A DNA stretch of 64,000 nucleotides from NCBI RefSeq assembly GCF_024398035.1, contig NZ_CP073748.1, positions 62,001 to 126,000 of the forward strand, given 5' to 3'. The translations under genes were made by a program, and so were the position numbers. The notes beneath the pieces were generated by a model, which saw only the letters and a program-made list of their open reading frames with translations, ran no database searches and had not been told where the DNA came from. This DNA is from Kordiimonas sp. SCSIO 12603 (GTDB lineage Bacteria > Pseudomonadota > Alphaproteobacteria > Sphingomonadales > Kordiimonadaceae). Every line of letters starts with the position of its first letter. Position 1 is the first letter of the stretch. Below are positions 60,111-64,000 of the stretch, piece by piece.

Positions 60111-61067
60111 TCACGCCCCCGAAGAGATGGCAAAACGTGCCCGGTAATCTCTCGGCGTTAATCCCATTACCTTATGGAATATCCGGCGAAATGCGCCCGG
60201 GTCCTGGTAACCCACCTGCCACGCGATCTGATCTACACTTTGGCTCGTAAGTTCCATCAATTCTCTCGCTTTCCCGATTCTAAGGTGCTGCAAATACTCA
60301 GATGGACTAAAGCCTGTGGCCTGCTGAAAACGGCGTATGAAGGTGCGACCAGACAAGCCGGAAAACTCTGTCATTTCCTTCACTGTAACTGCCTCCGCAA
60401 ACCCAGACTGGAGCCACTGCTGTACTTTTAGAACTGCACTATCGCCGTGAGACAGAGAAGGCGAAAAAACACTATAAAAACGTTGTTCTCTTTCACCGGG
60501 ATCAACCAATAAAAATTTCGCCGTTTTGAGCATAATGGCTGGTCCTAAAAACCTATCTACCAGCTTAAGCCCCAAATCAATCCATGCCATAACGCCGCCA
60601 GCGGTGATAAGGTCGCCGTCATCCACCAGCATGCGCTCAACATTCAGTTCAACATCAGGGTAGCTGCTTTCAAATTGGTTTGCCAAATCCCAATGGGTGG
60701 TAGCTGTACGCCCATCAAGCAAACCTGCTTCAGCAAGCAGGAAAGCACCAGCACATACCGAACACATTAAAACACCGTCGCCATATAACTTCTGAAGATC
60801 AGCTTTGAATATACCAGCGGTACTGAGAATATCTCCATGCAAACTTGGCGGCAGGATAAGGGCAGACAAAGGGGCACACTTTTGGGCACACAGTTCGGTC
60901 AAAACCTCTATTTTCAGGGGTCTGTGCCCATTAGTGTGCCCAGCCTCGCTATGAAGTCTCTCAGCCGTTTCAAACAGATCCAAAAGCCCATAAACCGCCG
61001 CATTTTGTGCCCCGGGATATTTAAAAATACCAATATGAATGTCAGATGATGCCACCATATGGCACAT
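60111..61067 (-). CDS. GlxA-type transcriptional regulator (DJ-1/PfpI + AraC HTH)
   Basis: 318 aa (ATG at 61067; an ATG three codons later is possible). N-terminal DJ-1/PfpI-like amidotransferase fold (about 8-185) with the elbow 'VLMCSVCAGAFLLAEAGLLDGRTATTHW', then an AraC double HTH (about 220-315; 'VKEMTEFSGLSGRTFIRRFQQATGFSPSEYLQHLRI', 'SVDQIAWQVGYQDPGAFRRIFHKVMGLTPRDYR'). Divergent from the isochorismatase and GST genes, a common pairing, so these are its likely targets. Confidence 0.92.
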   Translation of the reverse strand: MCHMVASSDIHIGIFKYPGAQNAAVYGLLDLFETAERLHSEAGHTNGHRPLKIEVLTELCAQKCAPLSALILPPSLHGDILSTAGIFKADLQKLYGDGVLMCSVCAGAFLLAEAGLLDGRTATTHWDLANQFESSYPDVELNVERMLVDDGDLITAGGVMAWIDLGLKLVDRFLGPAIMLKTAKFLLVDPGEREQRFYSVFSPSLSHGDSAVLKVQQWLQSGFAEAVTVKEMTEFSGLSGRTFIRRFQQATGFSPSEYLQHLRIGKARELMELTSQSVDQIAWQVGYQDPGAFRRIFHKVMGLTPRDYRARFAISSGA

Positions 61068-62592: not shown

Positions 62593-62626
62593 AGTAATAA
62601 GTCAAATTCAATCGTGGGGGTTGAGT

Positions 62627-63868
62627 GTGTTTCGTAGTGAAGCTCTAAATGCACAAAAACAGAAGGTACACGGAGATGTGTTTCTAACGCAGCCCATACC
62701 TATCACCACAATTACACTTTTGATTGCTGCTATCGTTACAGTGTTAATGATTTTGTTGTTTACAGGCTCATATGCACGAAGCGAAAGAGTTGCTGGTTAT
62801 CTCGTCCCTTCAAAAGGCCTTGTTAAAATACAGGCAAGCCAATTTGGTGTTCTCCAAAATCTCTATGTGAAAGAAGGCAATCTAGTTGAAGAAGGGCAAG
62901 CCCTTGTAGATATTTTAATTGCCCCTAATGCTGCGGATGGAAGTAGTTTTATTGATCGAGGTCTCGCGGCTGTTCAGCATCAATACACCTTGATTGATAC
63001 CCAAATCACACTTGAAGAAAACCAGCTGGAATCTGAACTGGCAAAACTGTCATCAGATCAAAAAGAGCTTACGCTCCGCATTCAATCTTTAAACCAGCAA
63101 TTAGGTATCCAAAGAAAAATCACAGCGTCCGCTGAAGCAGCCTACAAGGATGTTCAGGAAATTCTCGGCAAAGGATACATCAGCAAGGTTGAATCTGAGC
63201 GCCGCCATCAAACATGGTTGGCACAACAAGCACAGGAACAGTTACGGGAGCAAGAACTTGTTGAAGCAAATGCCCGCAATGAGCAGCTACAAATCCGTTT
63301 AAATCAGGTTTCCACAGAAAGCCAACAACGTATTACCCGTCTGGCAAATCAAAAATCTGAACTCGATAGCCGTAAAGCGGAACTGGAAGGCAGACAAGCC
63401 TATACCATCACATCCCCTGTAAAGGGGAAAGTTGTAAGCCTCTCTATTAGGAACGCAGGCAGATCTGTACAGGGTGGCCAACCTCTTCTAGCGATATTAC
63501 CGGAAGGCAGCACCCTTGAAGCTGAATTGTTCGTGCCCAGCCGCGCAGCAGGCTTTGTAAAAGAAGGGCAGGAAGTTCAGTTACTCTATGATGCCTTCCC
63601 CTACCAACGCTTTGGCAGCCATGCTGCAACATTAAAAAGTGTCACGGAAACAATTCTTTCCCCAACGGAAACACTCGCTCCCTTTGAGATTCAAGAACCT
63701 GTGTACCGGGTGGTTGCCAATCTGAAATCTGATCAAATTGTAACAGGTGAACAGTCAATCAATTTGCAGGGCGGCATGACCTTACAAGCGAACATCATTC
63801 TTGAACGACGAAGTTTCCTTGAATGGCTTCTGGAACCTTTGAAATCAATAGGAACTTCAAACAAGTAA
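62627..63868 (+). CDS. HlyD/CvaA-type membrane-fusion protein for peptide export
   Basis: 413 aa from the GTG at 62627 (GGGGG 6 bases upstream; a TTG two codons earlier is less well spaced). N-terminal 'FRSEALNAQKQKVHGDVFLTQPIP', one membrane helix (about 31-54), 'GSYARSERVAGYLVPSKGLVKIQAS', a lipoyl-like domain, long coiled coils (about 115-255, Gln/Glu-rich), 'YTITSPVKGKVVSLSIRNAGRSVQGGQPLLAILPEG' and a beta-barrel end. This plan is that of adaptors of bacteriocin/microcin exporters that work with a peptidase-containing ABC protein. Partner genes are expected beyond the window edge. Confidence 0.88.
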   Translation: MFRSEALNAQKQKVHGDVFLTQPIPITTITLLIAAIVTVLMILLFTGSYARSERVAGYLVPSKGLVKIQASQFGVLQNLYVKEGNLVEEGQALVDILIAPNAADGSSFIDRGLAAVQHQYTLIDTQITLEENQLESELAKLSSDQKELTLRIQSLNQQLGIQRKITASAEAAYKDVQEILGKGYISKVESERRHQTWLAQQAQEQLREQELVEANARNEQLQIRLNQVSTESQQRITRLANQKSELDSRKAELEGRQAYTITSPVKGKVVSLSIRNAGRSVQGGQPLLAILPEGSTLEAELFVPSRAAGFVKEGQEVQLLYDAFPYQRFGSHAATLKSVTETILSPTETLAPFEIQEPVYRVVANLKSDQIVTGEQSINLQGGMTLQANIILERRSFLEWLLEPLKSIGTSNK

Positions 63869-63874
63869 GGAATT

Positions 63875-63909
63875 TGGTTTCTCTGAAACCAGATAGAGGC
63901 GTCAGCCTC
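63875..63909. other. Two adjacent small hairpins
   Basis: TGGTTTC-TCT-GAAACCA (63875-63891) and GAGGC-GTCA-GCCTC (63896-63909) between the HlyD-type gene and the following small gene. No T-run; they may stabilise the message or reduce read-through so that the small gene is expressed differently. Confidence 0.4.
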
Positions 63910-63957
63910 ATATAACAAAGGCAAAACTGCCTAGTATCAATATTAAGGAGCATAAAA

Positions 63958-64000
63958 ATGAAAATAGAAGAAATGAAAATTGATGAAATGAGCAAAGTAG
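63958..64000 (+). CDS. Start of a small gene, possible double-glycine-leader peptide precursor (truncated)
   Basis: ATG with TAAGGAG 7 bases upstream. The 14 codons before the window edge read MKIEEMKIDEMSKV. A short Met/Lys/Glu-rich run ending in an EMxxV pattern is what the N-terminus of double-glycine leader peptides looks like (typical form ...E(L/M)xxVxGG), and it directly follows a CvaA-type adaptor gene. The GG itself is not reached, so this is a proposal. A start of an unrelated small protein is the alternative. Confidence 0.5.
   Translation, partial: MKIEEMKIDEMSKV

Follow-up and report, generated by a model that had tools for sequence, protein, structure and literature searches.

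Class II microcins follow a five-part plan consisting of a precursor with a GG or GA leader, a C39-peptidase ABC exporter, an adaptor, TolC and an immunity protein, according to an account that counts only 10 of them as validated by 2022, mostly from E. coli (PMC9746304). According to a 2013 review, marine Proteobacteria had not yet yielded a characterised bacteriocin (PMC3826127). For the mcb locus of Moraxella catarrhalis pLQ510, deletion is reported to have abolished killing and mcbI to have protected, and purified His-tagged McbC to have shown no killing in vitro (PMC2761928). Here we describe a locus of Kordiimonas sp. SCSIO 12603 that, judged from its sequence, probably serves the type-I secretion of double-glycine-type peptides and most likely represents a class II microcin or bacteriocin locus. 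Loci combining GG peptides, a C39 exporter and an adaptor are a known kind; the arrangement of a DUF2059 protein lacking a signal peptide with a TraB/PrgY protein, together with a difference in payload, makes this locus a variant.

The window, meaning the whole 64,000-nucleotide stretch of DNA that was analysed (G000:C1:62001-126000), lies in a genome that forms a single contig of 3,850,845 bases. The locus runs past the window end, and features there are given on the stretch L004 (C1:124001-142000), for which the window position equals the L004 position plus 62000. An AraC-like regulator gene is located upstream of the locus on the opposite strand (60111-61067). On the plus strand, positions 62621-63868 encode the exporter adaptor, a 415-aa HlyD/CvaA/McbA-type membrane-fusion protein that matches PF13437 (62 bits) and PF16576 (44 bits) over cut-off, and TIGR01843 (142 bits) under its cut-off of 208.65. 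Positions 63958-64000 read ATGAAAATAGAAGAAATGAAAATTGATGAAATGAGCAAAGTAG, with the in-frame translation MKIEEMKIDEMSKV. This is the start of peptide gene A on the plus strand, which is cut by the window end and as a whole occupies L004:1958-2188.

The sequence-only reading had proposed a leader-peptide gene at this position, and the details on which it relied were all recovered: the strong ribosome site (AAGGAG at 63945-63950, plus strand, 7 nt ahead of the ATG at 63958), the 89-bp gap after the end of the HlyD-family gene at 63868, and the near-repeat MKIEE/MKIDE in the start of peptide A (86% DNA match). We think that this near-repeat is incidental because its second half provides the leader residues E(-8) and M(-7). 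That reading had further predicted a GG within about 25 codons, additional small genes with the same leader and a downstream C39-peptidase ABC gene, as opposed to a long protein without a GG site or such an exporter. The frame in fact closes at 76 aa, with its GG at codons 16-17; three further small genes carry a leader of the same type, ending in GA; and a C39-peptidase ABC gene starts 0.96 kb past the start of peptide A (PF03412, 123 bits). The leaders, the exporter and the short frame support its suggestion of a bacteriocin-type peptide locus.

Peptides A-D are encoded by four ORFs, 60-83 aa long, whose leaders span 17-27 aa and end in GG or GA, as in class II microcin precursors; all four ORFs are open and preceded by ribosome-site motifs. 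In peptide A, the leader MKIEEMKIDEMSKVVGG precedes a 59-aa core that contains two Cys; peptides B (L004:2419-2601; leader ...ELDLVNGA; 42-aa core) and C (L004:2702-2896; leader ending as in peptide B; 46-aa core) have a single Cys each, and peptide D (L004:5698-5949; leader ...EIDFVMGA) has a Gly-rich hydrophobic core of 56 aa. Set against the double-glycine leader consensus, 4/4 leaders fit: positions -12 and -7 are hydrophobic, -8 is E, -4 is V, -2 is G and -1 is G or A. A strict scan, requiring an ATG, a ribosome-site motif and [EQD][LIMV]xx[VILM]xG[GA] near the N-terminus, matched 4 times within the 4.4 kb of the locus and not once in 91.3 kb taken from elsewhere in the genome (62.6 kb of window sequence and downstream stretches of 10.7 and 18.0 kb), a background in which this narrow pattern missed one GG-leader ORF, the 37-aa ORF of a second peptide locus. 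None of the four peptides passed a family model in Pfam or NCBIfam, and none was among the NCBIfam matches to TIGR03949 (Lactobin A/cerein 7B class IIb bacteriocin). Searching 109 loci (some covering the same stretch twice) with tblastn gave no match for A, D or the 63-aa ORF behind peptide D, and matched B and C only in Kordiimonas laminariae. The core net charges are -7 for A, -3 for B and -6 for C, and none of these three is hydrophobic. Such acidic, non-hydrophobic cores are unlike the usual membrane-active class II peptides. This acidic, less typical character makes the role of peptides A-C less certain. Peptide D, the only one of the four with a hydrophobic core (GRAVY 1.12, net charge -2, hence not cationic), looks like a membrane-active class II core.

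The 728-aa exporter (L004:2922-5108; PF03412, PF00664, PF00005) has an intact peptidase triad (C24/H97/D113), as microcin exporters do, and its spacings of 73 and 16 are the same as those of CvaB, numbered C32/H105/D121 in PMC9746304. Its best solved relative is 4ry2, labelled as an ABC-type bacteriocin transporter, and ComA structures are also among its solved relatives. HlyB/RTX exporters carry a C39-like domain without the peptidase triad. C39-like domains are described as lacking peptidase activity (PMC9746304). The intact triad and scores under cut-off led us to reject both an HlyB/RTX type-I secretion exporter (TIGR01846, 442 versus 725.55) and an NHLM export system (TIGR03796, 507.9 versus an equivalog cut-off of 853.3). 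Strong constraint acts on both the adaptor and the exporter, which are intact; for the adaptor, dN is 0.005 and dS 0.105 relative to K. laminariae. Matches to TolC-type outer-membrane proteins (OEP) numbered 9, spread over 5 sites that all lie outside the locus.

By analogy with studied relatives, the leaders would bring precursors A-D to the C39 domain, which would cut after the GG or GA. The core would then exit via the exporter, the adaptor and a TolC-like protein encoded elsewhere, and most likely act against competing relatives. Immunity proteins of class II microcins are usually 51-216 aa long, have a membrane helix and are encoded close by. The likeliest candidate immunity gene is the 63-aa ORF behind peptide D (L004:6109-6300). 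In a simple hydropathy scan it has one clear hydrophobic stretch, versus two in the small ORFs behind the peptide in two related cassettes. Homology among the small ORFs of the three cassettes was considered and is unsupported, as they are not significantly alike (z 2.0, 0.0 and 0.9).

The payload was compared with that of a close relative. The exporter is 98% identical over residues 1-699 to the copy of K. laminariae 5E331, the same match being found in a genome listed as the same genus (G016), and DNA identity to the K. laminariae locus (L039) is 96% on the adaptor side and 97% on the exporter side. Peptide C is kept in K. laminariae, and peptides A, B and D are absent there. Specifically, L004:1941-2629, which holds peptide A, a truncated C39 stub and peptide B, is missing, and L004:4998-7449, comprising the exporter end, the DUF2059 gene, peptide D, the 63-aa ORF and the TraB gene, has L039:8077-9829 as its counterpart, after which synteny resumes at L004:7450. 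That K. laminariae segment encodes a different exporter end, an Rce1/CPBP-type protein and three other leader peptides, one of which ends in AG rather than GG or GA; our leader pattern overlooks two of these three. Peptide C itself looks to be under purifying selection (dN 0.046, dS 0.161 for the one pair compared). At the sequence level, payload genes differ among close relatives while the pump is kept, and we infer that recombination caused the difference.

Possible traces of such exchange lie in the DNA around peptides A-C. A repeated element upstream of the first peptide gene (63896-63932, plus strand) contains two small predicted hairpins, GAGGC-GTCA-GCCTC at 63896-63909 and AGGCA-AAAC-TGCCT at 63919-63932, and recurs before peptides B and C. 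In 29 genomes of the family, a 75-base query for this element found three copies at this locus, one in the K. laminariae-like G016 and none elsewhere, and Rfam gave no match across 7.4 kb of the locus. The 55-bp upstream elements are located at the edges of the first K. laminariae difference and may have served as crossover sites. The C39 stub between peptides A and B (about L004:2202-2347, past the window) corresponds to an exporter start, covers PF03412 positions 2-32 including the Cys motif, and is 75% identical to the start of the resident exporter. Compared with the exporter starts of four related loci, it is 69-74% identical to three, with no value listed for the fourth (L047). Because the stub is hardly closer to the resident exporter than to these loci, its sequence suggests that it arrived with an imported cassette.

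For a wider comparison we used the 80 best of 484 exporter loci found in named genomes; these 80 are not independent (several strains of one species, one contig twice), and many are cut by contig ends. At least one same-strand leader ORF was present in 35/80, with none found by the pattern in the other 45/80, and the leader ORFs numbered 72 on the same strand versus 21 on the opposite strand, which represents background. When 9 of these same-type peptides were scanned with NCBIfam, one (from Veronia, L102) passed TIGR03949 (37.7 versus a cut-off of 21.5). Two Pseudoalteromonas exporter loci (L048:9139-9652 and L051:9134-9646) each hold, in addition to other GG peptides, four similar tandem GA-leader peptides, with the cores GGSVYGKVTKDGWEIGF... 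and GGTIYGKVTKDGWEIGF...

The exporter is followed by two genes that set the locus apart. The first, at L004:5124-5564, encodes a DUF2059 protein (PF09832, 52.3 bits versus a cut-off of 23.6) that matches the DUF2059 proteins of PDB 3oao and 2x3o by sequence. Among 396 genomes drawn from the order, the 5 closest copies (E <= 2e-20) are all located beside a C39 exporter, in 4 genomes of one family (G000, G013, G019, and G027 twice), and these 5 copies have no hydrophobic N-terminus. Two weaker matches do have one, with no exporter within the 3.3 kb examined. With the Pfam model, the 29 family genomes yield 18 DUF2059 matches, 5 of them exporter-linked. G027 has two copies of the gene, each with a peptide gene of its own behind it.

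The second gene, at L004:6484-7341, encodes a TraB/PrgY/GumN protein (PF01963, 238.5 bits versus a cut-off of 26.8). H39, E65, E165 and H263 are invariant in 18/18 rows of the family alignment, and we presume that they correspond to the 2His/2Glu set described for TIKI enzymes (PMC6254334). The protein shares the PF01963 family with TraB/PrgY of enterococcal pheromone plasmids; it differs from these and from TIKI in being Gram-negative, in having, by eye, a hydrophobic N-terminus and in being encoded beside a C39 exporter. The order peptide, small ORF, TraB occurs at three loci, namely in this genome, in G027, where an additional 75-aa ORF intervenes, and on the MAG contig L043, where DUF2059 is lacking. 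The linked TraB proteins of G027 and L043 are 59-63% identical to the linked copy described here, those of G036, G024, G019 and the second G027 copy 44-53%, and the other TraB of the window genome 32%. The associated peptides (D and those of L043 and G027) are alike beyond shuffled sequences (z 5.0-7.0, 0/300 each), to which their Gly/Ala-rich make-up and shared leader contribute. On the L043 contig (Dive100_bin4.62), an exporter, a Gly-rich GG peptide, a small ORF that encodes two hydrophobic stretches, and TraB directly follow one another (L043:157-3983), forming a compact version of the Kordiimonas cassette; single-sequence structure prediction of its TraB reached a mean pLDDT of 36 and was set aside.

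This linkage is recurrent, not obligatory, because in the 29 family genomes, with 43 TraB and 22 C39 matches (stub excluded), only 2 TraB genes lie within 6 kb of a C39 gene, and because the related copies in G019 and G024, like the second one of G027, are unlinked. The G036 copy lies at a contig edge. In a first TraB tree (18 rows), the three linked copies fell to the same side of a branch with support 77/53. After addition of G036 and G024 (20 rows) they no longer formed one group, and a wider clade (99/96) contained three linked, one contig-edge and two unlinked copies. The idea of TraB as an exclusive cassette gene is weakened by this tree and by the unlinked copies. A TraB search of 385 genomes drawn from the class, among which close relatives may be thin, found only this genome at 1e-70.

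We infer accessory roles for both proteins, with the DUF2059 protein handling the precursor or protecting in the cytoplasm, and TraB clearing peptide in the periplasm. A more elaborate version, which we put forward tentatively and with low confidence, is a two-layer self-control undescribed for Gram-negative peptide exporters. The signal-peptide-less DUF2059 protein would be a cytoplasmic chaperone or antidote for the exported peptide, and the TraB/PrgY/TIKI-type hydrolase would destroy leaked-back mature peptide in the periplasm, much as proposed for PrgY acting on pheromone.

An alternative is that the locus exports pheromone-like signals, in the manner of ComA/BlpA-type exporters, and that a PrgY-like TraB removes the cell's own signal. 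PrgY/TraB is described as thought to degrade endogenous pheromone (PMC7117660), both His and both Glu are invariant here, and C39 exporters also export signals, the ComA relatives included. We consider this unlikely: by eye, neither a sensor kinase or response regulator nor a peptide-receptor regulator lies beside the locus, which has an AraC-like gene upstream, the payloads differ among close relatives in an arms-race-like manner, and the core of peptide D is hydrophobic and Gly-rich.

More doubtful still is a payload of modified RiPPs, with the Cys of A, B and C as modification sites and the modifying enzymes encoded elsewhere. The genome does contain a separate radical SAM/SPASM and HExxH locus about 14 kb downstream, and peptide B has weak lantibiotic matches. 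Those matches (E 0.06 and 0.048), however, score well short of the cut-off and fall for the most part within the leader; no modifying enzyme is present among the nine locus proteins scanned; the exporter stays under the NHLM cut-off (508 versus 853); and the downstream locus has its own precursor, next to its own C39 exporter.

That downstream locus (L008:3023-10509, i.e. G000:C1:145023-152509, minus strand) looks like a cyclophane RiPP locus. It encodes a 37-aa GG peptide (leader ...LKAVAGG, core AGHSSWNRTGRG), a radical SAM/SPASM protein that is closest to XyeB (270 bits, under the cut-off of 450), an aKG-HExxH hydroxylase (60 versus a cut-off of 40), a C39-ABC protein and an FtsX/MacB-type permease. 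Between the HExxH and C39 genes, a 51-aa ORF (L008:7614-7769, minus strand; SNSFFRAEAL...) by eye resembles only the N-terminal membrane part of an HlyD adaptor, and no frame continues the rest; it may be a mini-adaptor or a remnant.

Decay of the locus, with peptides A-C as relics and only the pump mattering, is highly improbable, as the truncated stub and the lack of A and B in K. laminariae are outweighed by four open ORFs with ribosome-site motifs, a conserved peptide C with dN < dS, and a constrained adaptor and exporter.

Read as a probable class II microcin or bacteriocin locus, this region supplies four candidate peptides and their pump in Kordiimonas, together with a closely related strain that has a different payload, and it gives the little-understood DUF2059 and TraB/PrgY/GumN families a concrete peptide context. 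Among the literature matches listed (titles and abstract starts of open-licence papers), none connected a GG-peptide locus of a Gram-negative bacterium with DUF2059 or TraB/PrgY/GumN, and none concerned a Kordiimonas bacteriocin.

Two known systems come closest to the locus as a whole. Moraxella catarrhalis mcbABCI (pLQ510) likewise combines a C39-ABC exporter with an HlyD-type adaptor and a GG-leader peptide, and its small immunity ORF has a candidate counterpart here. The two exporters share 45.7% identity across 95% of the query, so that the Moraxella one is nearer than the genome's own second C39 exporter (only 32%). The HlyD-family adaptor of pLQ510 is only 31% identical to the Kordiimonas one; its single peptide gene lies behind the exporter, whereas three precede and one follows the exporter here; its McbC core is cationic (+5), whereas the Kordiimonas cores are acidic; and the Kordiimonas locus adds the DUF2059 and TraB/PrgY genes. 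With the Enterobacterales class II microcins (CvaC/CvaAB) the locus shares the GG/GA precursor, the Cys/His/Asp triad of the C39-ABC exporter, the adaptor and TolC, and their small immunity protein has a candidate counterpart in the 63-aa ORF. It differs from them in cores that match no family model, in several payloads per pump, and in its place in the Kordiimonadaceae with extra partners.
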